64,000 nt of DNA, taken from assembly GCF_000170795.1 (NCBI RefSeq), contig NZ_ABCM01000006.1, forward strand, positions 186,001 through 250,000, given 5' to 3'. The notes beneath the pieces are model-generated. The model saw only the letters and a list, made by a program, of their open reading frames with translations, had not been told where the DNA came from and ran no database searches. Origin of the DNA: Pedobacter sp. BAL39 (GTDB taxonomy: Bacteria > Bacteroidota > Bacteroidia > Sphingobacteriales > Sphingobacteriaceae). A program made the translations under genes and the position numbers. Shown one piece after another: positions 27,867 to 31,966 of the stretch (position 1 is the first letter of the stretch; each line of letters begins with the position of its first letter).

Positions 27867-28703
27867 TCAGGAAAAGTCTGATTGAGGCCTAGCCACCCCA
27901 CCCTCCGGTAGCTCTGTCGGCGCGTAGCCGAAGTGCTTCTTGAAAAGAAAAGAGAAATGAGACAGGTTTTCAAACCCTGTCTCAAAAATCACCTCCACAG
28001 GCCTTCTACCCTGGACTGACATCAGGTAATGCGCCAGTTCCAGCCGCTTTTGCATCAGCCATTTATGAGGAGTGGTGTTATAGGTCTTCTTAAAATCACG
28101 CTTAAAGGTCGTGATGCTCCTGCCAGTAAGATACCCGAACTTTGTCATCGTCATGTTGAACATATAGTTCTTTTCCATAAAACCTGACAGGTCCACCTTA
28201 CCGGGTTCTTCGAAATTGGCCAGTACGCCGTCCACTTCGGGATCGATAGACCTTAAAATGCTGATGGCCTCATTAATTTTCAGCGAGGCAAGGTTTGGAG
28301 GCAACTCCTCCATCTCGAAATAGGGAACCAATGATGCCAGGCAGCTTTCAAGCAAAGGATGGCGCTTAAAACTGCGGATTTTCGGTATGGGCACAACCTC
28401 AGCCTTCACCTTTACACTTGCGTAGAAGTCGTTCAACGTTGCTGCCGACAATAACATGACTACCGATTTATGAGGCAAGCCGTCTTTTGGATAATTGATA
28501 ATCGTTGCTGGCTGATTTCTCGGGATCAGGAAGATGTCCCCTGCTTTAAAAGTATGACTTGCCCCTGCCTGCAGAATTTTCGTTTCCCCTGACATAAACC
28601 AAATGAGCATGTGCTGATCAAACACCACTTCGGATTTAAAAAGCTTGTCTTCGTAACAGGACAACTTAATATCGGGTGTGATATATTTTGAAGTATGTTC
28701 CAT
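27867..28703 (-). CDS. AraC-family transcriptional regulator
   Basis: This 278-residue protein has an N-terminal cupin-like sensing domain (FKAGDIFLIPRNQPATI) and a C-terminal double HTH region (about 175-268) with FGYLTGRSITTFKRDFKK and ending FLFKKHFGYAPTELP. It follows the SDR gene by 25 bases on the same strand. Two 15-bp direct repeats upstream of that operon (29797-29834) have the spacing expected for AraC binding, so this protein probably controls its own operon. Confidence 0.92.
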   Translation of the reverse strand: MEHTSKYITPDIKLSCYEDKLFKSEVVFDQHMLIWFMSGETKILQAGASHTFKAGDIFLIPRNQPATIINYPKDGLPHKSVVMLLSAATLNDFYASVKVKAEVVPIPKIRSFKRHPLLESCLASLVPYFEMEELPPNLASLKINEAISILRSIDPEVDGVLANFEEPGKVDLSGFMEKNYMFNMTMTKFGYLTGRSITTFKRDFKKTYNTTPHKWLMQKRLELAHYLMSVQGRRPVEVIFETGFENLSHFSFLFKKHFGYAPTELPEGGVARPQSDFS

Positions 28704-28728: not shown

Positions 28729-29754
28729 TTAAAAAGGCTGAAACTGTATGCCAATCATTTTTTCAGTCAGCGTCCATAGTTTCTTCGCCCTTTCCTTATC
28801 CAGCGAATAGGGCTTTACACCATGCAATGTCCATGGCTCATCATACCGGTGCCCTATATTTCCCGTATCCAGCACGGCAATGTCAGCATCTTCACAATAA
28901 ACGCCTCCAATGTCATCCAGCAGTGGACTTGTTGCACACCAAATGGTCGTCGCTGCCCCTTGGGGGATGGTCTTCAGCCGCTCAGCGACTTCCTTTTTGA
29001 TCAGGCCATGCTCGTCATAAGTACCCATCTGCTGAAACAATGCAATAGGCTCTTCCCTACCTAAATCTGTACCATATACGGCTCCGGGATGTACCGAATA
29101 TGCACGCACACCAAGGTCAGCCCCACGTTGGTCCAGCTCCATCGCAAAGAGGTTACTGGCAGTTTTTGACTGTCCGTAGCCCAACAAGGTATCGTATTCC
29201 CGGCTTTCAAAGTTAGGATCTTCAAAGTTGAATGCTGACATCTGATGCCCAAATGAAGAAACATTGATCACTCTCGCTCCCCTCGCTGCCTTAAGTGCAG
29301 GCCATAAGCCCGACACAAGCTGAAACTGTCCCAGGTAATTGGTGGCCAATTGCGATTCGATGCCACGGCTATCCCTTCGTAAGGGCACCCACATGATCCC
29401 GGCGTTGTTGATCAGCAAATGAAGCGGCCTTTCCGTAGTGATAAATCTATCCACAAACCCATCGACAGACTTGGAATCCATTAAATCCATCTGCTCCAAT
29501 TCCACATTTGGAAAGCCCTGAAACACTTTCATTGCCTTTTCAACTGACCTCACCGGCACAATAACTTTCGCCCCTACTGAGGCAAGTACCTTAACCGTTT
29601 CCAATCCGATTCCGGCACTTCCACCGGTAACCACAGCAATCTTCCCTGTAAGGTCAGCACCATTGATCACCTCGGCCGCAGTTGATGATGCATTGAAACC
29701 CGAACCCAATGGCTGTTGCAATGCCCCCTGATAATTATTTTTTTTCATATCCAT
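28729..29754 (-). CDS. Short-chain dehydrogenase (WWOX/retinol-dehydrogenase-like)
   Basis: From the ATG at 29754 the product has 341 residues. It has TGGSAGIG, NNAG and the catalytic YGQSK, plus a long C-terminal region (AVLDTGNIGHRYDEPW). The frame is open to 29772, but that point lies inside the -7 box (29770-29777), so the ATG at 29754 or 29748 is the real start. SDRs of this group reduce diverse small carbonyl compounds. It forms an operon with the araC gene behind it. Confidence 0.88.
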   Translation of the reverse strand: MDMKKNNYQGALQQPLGSGFNASSTAAEVINGADLTGKIAVVTGGSAGIGLETVKVLASVGAKVIVPVRSVEKAMKVFQGFPNVELEQMDLMDSKSVDGFVDRFITTERPLHLLINNAGIMWVPLRRDSRGIESQLATNYLGQFQLVSGLWPALKAARGARVINVSSFGHQMSAFNFEDPNFESREYDTLLGYGQSKTASNLFAMELDQRGADLGVRAYSVHPGAVYGTDLGREEPIALFQQMGTYDEHGLIKKEVAERLKTIPQGAATTIWCATSPLLDDIGGVYCEDADIAVLDTGNIGHRYDEPWTLHGVKPYSLDKERAKKLWTLTEKMIGIQFQPF

Positions 29755-29769
29755 TCTATTTTGTTGATT

Positions 29770-29777
29770 CAAAGATA
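29770..29777 (-). promoter_or_regulatory. Promoter -7 box of the SDR-araC operon
   Basis: On the minus strand TATCTTTG matches TAnnTTTG, 15 bases before the ATG at 29754. The -33 position, 19 bases upstream, reads AAGT instead of TTTG and is part of the proximal direct repeat, as expected for an activator-dependent promoter. Confidence 0.6.
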
Positions 29778-29796
29778 GATGGACAGAAAATTCAGC

Positions 29797-29834
29797 ACTT
29801 TGTTTTAAGGACTTATTTGACTTTGTTTTAAGGA
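29797..29834. repeat. Two 15-bp direct repeats, likely AraC operator
   Basis: ACTTTGTTTTAAGGA occurs at 29797-29811 and 29820-29834, identical and 23 bases apart start to start, about two helical turns. The proximal copy ends exactly where the -33 element should be. The spacing and position match class II AraC activator sites. Confidence 0.72.
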
Positions 29835-29842
29835 TCAGTCCA

Positions 29843-31966
29843 CTATTTTAACAATTCCCCCACAGCCCGTACCAGGCCATTCGGATCACTTGGCCTTGGC
29901 GCTGTCATCGTCACCACCTTTCCTTCCTGATCAACCAGCATATATGTCGGAAAGGAATTGATCGAAAAGCGGTTCTCAATCAGCCGCTGCTGTTCTTCTG
30001 GAAGCCGGTAGTGAACGATGTTTTCCCCGGTCAGGTCCATCTCCTTGATCATGCTCTTCCAGAGTTCTTCCGGAGACCTGTTTGCGAAATACATGAAAAT
30101 CACCTCTTTATTTTTCAATGCCTCTTTTGCAACTCCGGCATACTTCATCTCCTCCTTACACGGACCACACCAGGTACCCCAGAAATCAAGATAAATGATT
30201 TTACCGCGGTACGGTGCGATCAGCTCCTTAAACAGGGCGTCTGCCTCCTTCTCCGACTTCAGGTGATCCGTATTCTTAATGCTTTGAGCAAAAGTGAAAT
30301 CCGCATTTTTGGTTTTCAGCAAATGGTCATTGTAGGCCGATAGCTGAGCTCTGAATACAGGAGACTTCACCAGGCCCGCAAACTCCTCAAACTTCAGCGA
30401 CTCCATGGGTTTTCTCGTTCGCTCAAAATACTGATAAATGCTTCTGGCCTGAAAGACGTCCCTGATGTCTTCATCCGCAATAATTTTTGGATAGAAACCT
30501 CCTGCAAATCGAAGCTCGTTAAGCCAGAGTTGCTGGTCACCGGCCGTCATAATTTTGTCCTGATGGCGCACTTGCAACCCCTCCAGTAACTTAGATTGCG
30601 CAGCAGTTACTGTCTGTGCAAGCGCCTGACCACGCTGGGCATCAATACTGCTGAGACGTTCAATTTCCATATCCACCTCTGCCACCCTTTTTTCTTCGGC
30701 AGAAGCCGTCACCGTGCCATCCGCAATCAGGCTTACCAATGCCTCCGCATAAGAGCCCGTTGAGCCCTCAAACTCATCTCTGGAATAGTCTGTATAGTCC
30801 CTGATGAAAGTCGAAAAATTTGCGTTGAGGACAAAAGGAGCCAAAGGTGTTGTAAAAAGAGAATCTTTAACAAAACTCATGTATTCCCTGGGGAAACGCT
30901 CTTTACTGCGTCGGTCCAGGTCAAAACGCTTCTGCATCAGATCGGCGCCAATGGCGTACCTGTTGTAGTTTAGGATGAAATACTTAGCCTTCGCCGACAG
31001 AGATGGATTTCTTTTGAAATAATCGTTCGAGTAAACATTCGCCCTGGACAACACAGCCCACTTCGCATTCAGATATTCCATGCCCTTCATTTGTTTGCTC
31101 GCCCGCTCTTCTTCGCTATCTGCATATATTCCCGACGAAGTGGTATAAGGATTGTAACGGGCCAGTTCATTCTGAACCCTTGCCTTGTCGCCCATAAATA
31201 CCTGCTCCCCCGTTGAAAAATCGTAAAACAACAGGTAACGTTCCCCAGGTTCCAGCACACTTGCCTTACTCATCCTTCCCATATCGAGATAAACCTCGGC
31301 AGAATTCAATAACGGCACCTTGACGACAAAACGACCTGCGGAGTCTACCGTGCCAAATACCTTATCATTTTTATCGGTAATCACATTTCTATAGGAAATT
31401 GAAAAAGGTTCCTGATTCGGTGCATTTCTCAGATATCCTGTAACGTAAACAGTATCCATGATTTGATAATGCGTATCCTTGAAGACACTTGCATCAGCCG
31501 GGCTGTATGCAGGCAATATTTTAGCCACCTTTCGATAATCCTGCACGGCATGACTGCCAATCTTAACGGCTATCAGGCTATCTCCTCTTTTGCTGATCTT
31601 CAAACTCAACCGCTCAGCTCCATTTTTCAGCACTGCCCTTCCTGATTTTCCCGAGAACTGGAAAGATTCATAATCCCAAAATTTCTGGTCATAAATGGCA
31701 AAGTCCTCAAAAAAACCGAACGTCCATTCTCCTGACTTCGGATGATACCAGTTGCCCAATACCTCAGATACCATTGGATTGCGATCTTTACGAACATCAT
31801 TACCGGCACCCCACAGCACAGCGTTTTTTTCAAGATCATCTTTGAAAATAGCACCATCCGGGCAAAAGCGTTCTAAGCATACAGGTGGTATCTTGTCAGA
31901 TGCAACAGCATAGGAAACATAGCAAAAATTCAGCAATAACAGCAAGGCAGGGATAGAGCGCTTCAT
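29843..31966 (-). CDS. TlpA-like thioredoxin-domain protein
   Basis: This 707-residue exported protein has a signal peptide (ending near YAVAS), a long middle region of beta-sandwich and helical character, and a C-terminal TlpA/AhpC-type thioredoxin domain with the active site W599-C600-G-P-C603 in FWGTWCGPCKEEM. Such proteins reduce or isomerise disulphides in the periplasm and are common near outer-membrane transporters in Bacteroidota. The region around 185-245 (YVTGYLRNAPNQ, KVFGTVDSAGRFVVKVP) looks like the DUF4369-type domain often fused to TlpA. The gene is on the same strand as, and 88 bases upstream of, the SDR-araC operon. Confidence 0.88.
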   Translation of the reverse strand: MKRSIPALLLLLNFCYVSYAVASDKIPPVCLERFCPDGAIFKDDLEKNAVLWGAGNDVRKDRNPMVSEVLGNWYHPKSGEWTFGFFEDFAIYDQKFWDYESFQFSGKSGRAVLKNGAERLSLKISKRGDSLIAVKIGSHAVQDYRKVAKILPAYSPADASVFKDTHYQIMDTVYVTGYLRNAPNQEPFSISYRNVITDKNDKVFGTVDSAGRFVVKVPLLNSAEVYLDMGRMSKASVLEPGERYLLFYDFSTGEQVFMGDKARVQNELARYNPYTTSSGIYADSEEERASKQMKGMEYLNAKWAVLSRANVYSNDYFKRNPSLSAKAKYFILNYNRYAIGADLMQKRFDLDRRSKERFPREYMSFVKDSLFTTPLAPFVLNANFSTFIRDYTDYSRDEFEGSTGSYAEALVSLIADGTVTASAEEKRVAEVDMEIERLSSIDAQRGQALAQTVTAAQSKLLEGLQVRHQDKIMTAGDQQLWLNELRFAGGFYPKIIADEDIRDVFQARSIYQYFERTRKPMESLKFEEFAGLVKSPVFRAQLSAYNDHLLKTKNADFTFAQSIKNTDHLKSEKEADALFKELIAPYRGKIIYLDFWGTWCGPCKEEMKYAGVAKEALKNKEVIFMYFANRSPEELWKSMIKEMDLTGENIVHYRLPEEQQRLIENRFSINSFPTYMLVDQEGKVVTMTAPRPSDPNGLVRAVGELLK

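Follow-up and report, generated by a model that had tools for sequence, protein, structure and literature searches.

The minus strand of the window, the 64,000-nt stretch of Pedobacter sp. BAL39 DNA analysed here, carries two repeats and a promoter-like box in front of an SDR oxidoreductase gene that is followed by the gene for an AraC-family regulator. This arrangement raises the question whether the repeats constitute an operator, which protein would read it and whether binding would switch the genes on or off. The first-pass annotation had proposed that the repeats are read by the AraC protein encoded at 27867-28703. Conservation of the architecture, retention of the site beside different enzymes and covariation between protein residues and operator bases all support this assignment, and we consider it highly probable that the protein acts as an ExsA-like, autoregulated activator whose tandem half-sites would drive its own SDR-araC operon. 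The features of the locus are compiled in Table 1.

Table 1. Positions of the predicted operator, the promoter box and the neighbouring genes in the window.
Feature	Position	Strand	Remarks
Distal AraC half-site (predicted), TGATCCTTAAAACAAAGT	29820..29837	-	Agrees with the logo of 170 sites at -10, -9, -6 and AACAAA
Proximal AraC half-site (predicted), AAGTCCTTAAAACAAAGT	29797..29814	-	Overlaps the -33 region; A at -9, consensus G
Spacer, 19 nt	29778..29796	-	Length nearly fixed, sequence hardly conserved
-7 box, TATCTTTG	29770..29777	-	Read from the sequence; consensus TAnnTTTG from PMC9723704
SDR oxidoreductase gene, putative operator target	28729..29748	-	Start ATG 29748, alternative ATG 29754
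AraC-family regulator gene	27867..28703	-	25 nt past the SDR stop codon, same strand
TlpA/ResA-like thiol-disulfide oxidoreductase gene, upstream	29843..31966	-	Outside the switch

By direct reading, two identical copies of TCCTTAAAACAAAGT occupy 29834-29820 and 29811-29797 on the minus strand, precisely where the two 15-bp repeats had been annotated. The distance of 23 bases given for them is correct as the period from start to start but not as a gap, which measures 8 bp from edge to edge, and the count of exactly 19 bases between the 3' end of the proximal copy and TATCTTTG was confirmed. The consensus TAnnTTTG has been placed at -12 to -5 (PMC9723704). With this placement, transcription is predicted to start near 29765, and the proximal AACAAA would lie at -39 to -34, within a half-site extending to -32. 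A single copy of TCCTTAAAACAAAGT is unremarkable: with up to three mismatches, six matches were found in the window at an expectation of 2.74, and 8 of 100 shuffles reached six. At one mismatch or less, these two copies were the only matches in the genome, and the 15-mer read backwards had five. The pattern AACAAA-N17-AACAAA-N21-TAnnTTTG has one exact match in the whole genome, which is the site in the window, and the next-best places have two mismatches. It is therefore the arrangement that is special and not the lone copy, because it occurs once in the genome and is conserved in relatives. Further regulon members did not emerge from a scan of the same genome with the 23-bp spacing, since 30 matches with up to three mismatches stood against 36 in the reversed control; the only exact match being the window site, we do not claim a second target with this spacing.

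The SDR protein matched Pfam adh_short (1.4e-27), and its top NCBIfam match was PRK06196 with 369 bits, below the cut-off of 414. Its orthologues begin with MKKNNYHGAL or MEKNNYQGAL, and translation probably starts at the ATG codons given in Table 1 and not at TTG 29772 of the mechanical ORF list. The regulator matched HTH_18 (8e-17), HTH_AraC (5.3e-12) and ExsA_N (34 bits, cut-off 27), and the two genes would be co-transcribed. The distal half-site follows the stop codon of the thiol-disulfide oxidoreductase gene after only 5 nt (29838-29842), too short a distance for a terminator, so that read-through into SDR-araC is possible.

Related loci were collected by searching 59 genomes with the SDR protein and 399 genomes of the same family with the AraC protein, 225 of the latter containing a match at E ≤ 1e-40; the searches recovered orthologues as well as paralogues. 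The 201 loci compared comprise 120 of the AraC loci from the family search, 80 named loci (the best 80 of 296) and the window. Almost all loci of the named set are labelled as Bacteroidota (Pedobacter, Runella, Chitinophaga, Flavobacterium, Chryseobacterium, Spirosoma and others). The two locus sets overlap; identical sites were dropped for the logo and the residue-base code and kept in the spacing count of the 201 loci. Exact pairs of AACAAA upstream of araC were spaced by 22 bp in 47 cases and by 23 bp in 125, as compared to five at most for any other distance from 15 to 32, and these 172 pairs come from 167 of the 201 loci. An exact TAnnTTTG followed 19 nt past AACAAANN in 142 of the 172 pairs and 20 nt past it in two, and was absent in 28 over the checked range of 5 to 45 nt. 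Among the 170 distinct sites, the first T of the -7 box was replaced by G in 16 and by C in four. A strict 23-bp spacing is ruled out, as 22 bp recurs and the two alternate, with at least eight changes on the AraC tree.

A site scoring at least 17/18 was present in 181 of the 201 loci, yielding the 170 distinct sites, and 20 loci had none at this threshold. Within the named set (best 80 of 296), 72 of the 80 loci scored; in four of the eight misses the site lies before the SDR gene, 230-300 bp beyond the fetched stretch, which raises the count to 76 of 80. A fifth miss has a site elsewhere in the same genome, before an SDR gene, and no site was found for the other three in the named set. Reversed sequences gave no match at 17/18 or better in the first locus set, compared to 112 in the forward direction, and one in the named set. 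Across the 399 genomes, the exact 23-bp pattern matched 67 times versus twice in reverse, and the 21/22-bp pattern 101 times versus nine.

The logo of the 170 distinct sites suggests a half-site of approximately 17-18 bp with the consensus T-G(-9)-R-n-C(-6)-T/G-T-T-T-A-AACAAA-G-Y, in which AACAAA had been used for finding the sites and the bases at -10 to -1 had not. Columns of the spacer mostly contain less than 0.3 bits, with 0.74 bits in the last column and 0.44 bits in column 14. The 15-bp unit of the first-pass annotation thus describes an identity that is real in this genome, but it does not hold as functional unit: exactly 15 bp is ruled out because the relatives conserve a longer and imperfect half-site. 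Perfect identity over 15 bp is particular to the window genome.

Among the 67 exact 23-bp sites, 52 lie upstream of an AraC gene recovered by the AraC searches, and nine of the other 15 precede a further AraC relative. Two are located before the SDR gene or an SDR fragment with no copy of this araC close by. Operator and -7 box without an AraC relative or SDR gene within about 4 kb downstream were found in the remaining four, which are possibly chance matches (the reversed pattern gave two) or distant targets. With the 21/22-bp search, 46 of 101 sites precede an AraC gene from the searches, and 18 of 20 sites sampled from the other 55 have an AraC gene downstream. Among the 44 first-set loci lacking a close SDR match, 34 retained the site at 17/18 or better; nine of the loci without such a match contributed ten upstream proteins, which proved to be SDRs of another subfamily, NAD-dependent epimerases or NAD(P)H-binding proteins, an aldo/keto reductase and a DJ-1-like protein. 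In the one case of an SDR orthologue without a relative of this AraC in 7.5 kb (L337), nothing reached 17/18; this locus has a different AraC-type frame nearby and a 16/18 match with non-standard spacing on the opposite strand, and its genome also contains two SDR-araC loci whose 16/18 sites are degenerate. Because the site is kept where the enzyme differs and the SDR gene of L337 is without it, the comparison supports that the operator accompanies the AraC regulator subfamily.

The organization of the loci varied in several respects. SDR and araC are separated by about 760-910 bp in eleven loci, and in two loci, L012 and L017, a second SDR-like frame was seen by eye to occupy the gap between them. 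Ahead of the SDR gene, L004 and L017 have a third AACAAA that precedes the distal copy by 21 and 19 bp, respectively, whereas most loci have two. In genome G416 (C16:375872-376687 and C16:390915; L066, L338 and L325), the SDR gene and a close AraC relative lie some 14 kb apart. Here the SDR gene has kept the operator, and the fetched 14-kb stretch revealed none near araC. Locus L153, oriented with araC on the plus strand, has three operator-like 17/18 sites at 939, 4628 and 4683. Two of these lie past araC in a back-to-back arrangement on opposite strands, which suggests that a divergent pair of genes is targeted as well. The region G000 C45:48000-60000 (L339) encodes another two AraC relatives, 46% and 39% identical to the L173 protein, at a distance of some 5 kb from each other, and a weak 16/18 site precedes one of these genes by roughly 1 kb. 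Contig PBYL01000281.1 is labelled as a Thalassovita sp. MAG (an alphaproteobacterial genus), yet its SDR-araC operon and operator are typical of Bacteroidota; this contig is probably wrongly binned.

In the predicted structure of the AraC protein, helices 186-192/197-208 and 235-241/247-258 form the two helix-turn-helix motifs of the C-terminal domain, and T198, K201 and R202 are located inside helix 197-208, the first recognition helix. Exactly these residues had the highest mutual information, weighted and corrected, with the bases at -10 to -1 (K201 0.60, R202 0.48 and T198 0.39, compared to at most 0.17 in the spacer control). K201 and R202 lead in both half-sites, and T198 covaries with -8 mainly in the proximal one. 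In the 170 protein-site pairs, all 131 proteins with K201 have C(-6) in both half-sites, whereas N201 is mostly accompanied by A(-6) (25/32 proximal, 19/32 distal) and R201 by G(-6) (5/5). Proteins with R202 have G(-9) in 152/155 proximal and 148/155 distal half-sites, whereas K202 occurs with G(-9) in none of 15 proximal and one of 15 distal half-sites; T198 coincides with G(-8) in 119/123 proximal and 88/123 distal half-sites and A198 with A in 14/14. When the 6,377 of 14,365 AraC pairs with less than 60% identity outside the helix were considered, residues 202, 198 and 201 ranked first among 239 testable columns for -9, -8 and -6, respectively, and did so in both half-sites. For the bases beyond these three, even the best columns covaried less strongly, and most of them do not belong to the helix; examples are F189 with -4 and S251 with distal -2.

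Twelve of the top 30 base-residue pairs fall into the first helix-turn-helix motif, compared to two in the spacer control, and 16 into the N-terminal domain, compared to 18 in the spacer control; therefore, shared ancestry contributes to the covariation. On a tree built without the helix, supported branches offer few independent pairs, namely four for residue 202, three for 201 and six for 198. In the proximal half-site none of these pointed in the opposite direction, with on average 0.7 of 3 and 1.0 of 6 showing no difference; in the distal half-site 0.1 were opposite on average for 202 and 198, and the median p values ranged from 0.06 to 0.5. Paralogues within one genome carry different codes in 11 of the 14 genomes with at least two studied sites and share the code in three; in G364, for example, SNR goes with GACA and TKR with GGCC. 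The window AraC, with T198, K201 and R202, predicts G(-8), C(-6) and G(-9). The bases at -8, -6 and -9 are A, C and G in the distal and G, C and A in the proximal half-site, and an A at proximal -9 occurs with three of the 155 R202 proteins. C(-6) is thus found in both half-sites, and the window operator may be weaker than the consensus because G(-9) and G(-8) each hold in only one of them. In the second recognition helix, S248, H249, F250, F254 and K255 are invariant in all 170 proteins; since AACAAA is likewise invariant, the second helix-turn-helix motif may read this box.

The view that the repeats arose by chance or mutational duplication beside an ordinary promoter finds some room in the single 15-mers, which are no rarer than controls. 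This view is ruled out by conservation of the geometry at 17/18 or better in 181 of 201 related loci, compared to 0, 1 and 2 matches in the reversed controls, and has next to no probability. It is very unlikely, too, that a different regulator reads the repeats and that the linkage to araC merely reflects gene order inherited with the operon. Sites and araC are indeed mostly part of one operon and would be inherited together, and four exact 23-bp sites lack an araC relative nearby. However, the site is kept beside another SDR, an epimerase, an aldo/keto reductase or a DJ-1-like gene, the residues covarying most strongly with its bases lie in the first recognition helix of this AraC, paralogue codes differ within 11 of 14 genomes, and the SDR of L337 without a relative of this AraC has no site, although this is one case with a different AraC-type frame nearby.

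Given that the AraC protein reads the site, it might also act as a negative autoregulator that occupies the -33 region and blocks RNA polymerase until a ligand releases it. The proximal half-site does cover the -33 region, an overlap that taken alone is compatible with repression too, and autoregulated AraC proteins are also able to repress. Against this stands the distance to the -7 box: of 144 measured cases, 142 have 19 nt, with little constraint on the sequence of the spacer. A fixed distance across a nearly free sequence points to contact with the polymerase, whereas mere blocking would not call for it. In addition, the closest relative of the N-terminal domain with a solved structure, ExsA, is an activator, and the first of its two sites overlaps the -35 region (PMC12648661). 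We therefore regard repression as unlikely and infer activation from the near-invariant 19 nt together with the overlap with the -33 region. The absence of a -33 motif, which the first-pass annotation had noted, adds little, because a -33 motif is reported not to have been identified in F. johnsoniae (PMC7366714). In the activation model, one AraC protomer would bind to each half-site, both in the same orientation, with the first helix-turn-helix motif contacting G(-9)-R(-8)-n-C(-6) through R202, T198 and K201 and the second contacting AACAAA. The proximal protomer would cover the -33 region at a fixed distance from TATCTTTG and recruit sigma factor and RNA polymerase, so that the SDR gene and araC would be switched on together. 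The trigger is probably a small molecule or, by analogy with ExsA, the release of AraC from a partner protein.

Tandem direct repeats for AraC-type proteins have been described before, also in Bacteroides (PMC3870299, PMC3878776). What appears to be new is the period of 22/23 bp, an operator common to a whole subfamily of mostly local regulators and a readable recognition code. Among the literature matches listed, nothing concerns such an operator for a Bacteroidota SDR-araC operon. The comparison turns a guess on one promoter into an operator that can be recognized from the sequence of many Bacteroidota genomes, and the associated protein-DNA code predicts the operator that a given AraC protein would bind. 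The SDR gains a dedicated candidate regulator, probably of a single operon. The system may be a source of mutually insulated inducible promoters for Bacteroidota and is relevant to the action of activators at TAnnTTTG promoters, where the -33 element is not always recognizable. A wider conjecture, which we put forward tentatively and rather doubt in its entirety, is that these loci form an unnamed, phylum-wide family of one-component switches. Each would pair an ExsA-like AraC protein, paralogous to the others, with a detoxifying enzyme of the NAD(P)-dependent or DJ-1-like kind encoded in the same operon. The AraC proteins would sense carbonyl or electrophile stress, and cross-talk would be prevented by the code of residues 198/201/202 matched to bases -8/-6/-9 of a uniform 22/23-bp operator that replaces the -33 element.

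The C-terminal domain of the predicted structure is similar to MarA in complex with DNA (Z 12.0), and AraC-type DNA-binding domains fit. T198, K201 and R202 in the first helix-turn-helix motif align with W40, Q43 and R44 of the 127-residue MarA record, which by our reading are W42, Q45 and R46 in the papers on MarA/SoxS/Rob. W42 and R46 of MarA are important for DNA binding, but MarA is devoid of an N-terminal domain and binds as monomer to a degenerate 20-bp marbox (PMC11633057). In its genetic context, the window system resembles YqhC-yqhD of E. coli, in which an AraC-family activator is dedicated to a neighbouring NADPH-dependent aldehyde reductase (PMC5297802). This likeness is one of description, yqhC is transcribed away from yqhDE, and the response to glyoxal or furfural is one of YqhC. 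Within the same phylum, direct repeats were predicted for RhaR and hybrid two-component AraC-type regulators of Bacteroides, but these have a 21-bp periodicity (21 bp; 16+5; 12+9), other N-terminal parts and carbohydrate targets (PMC3870299, PMC3878776).

ExsA of Pseudomonas aeruginosa, a member of the AraC/XylS family, shares the N-terminal family (Pfam ExsA_N) with the window AraC, whose predicted N-terminal domain is nearest to the ExsA regulatory domain (Z 17.2, rmsd 2.3, 149 aligned residues). Two helix-turn-helix motifs and direct-repeat, two-box half-sites adjoining the promoter likewise place the window AraC in the AraC/XylS family. ExsA also uses two tandem sites with centres at -44 and -65, each presumably bound by a monomer of its own; the near site overlaps the -35 region, and its first helix-turn-helix motif reads GnC (PMC12648661). 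The context of ExsA is secretion genes, whereas the window system concerns oxidoreductases and a Bacteroidota -7 promoter. The sites of ExsA are 21 bp apart with TGnnA as second box (PMC12648661), in contrast to 22 or 23 bp and AACAAA here, and because of this difference in period we call the window protein ExsA-like and not an ExsA.
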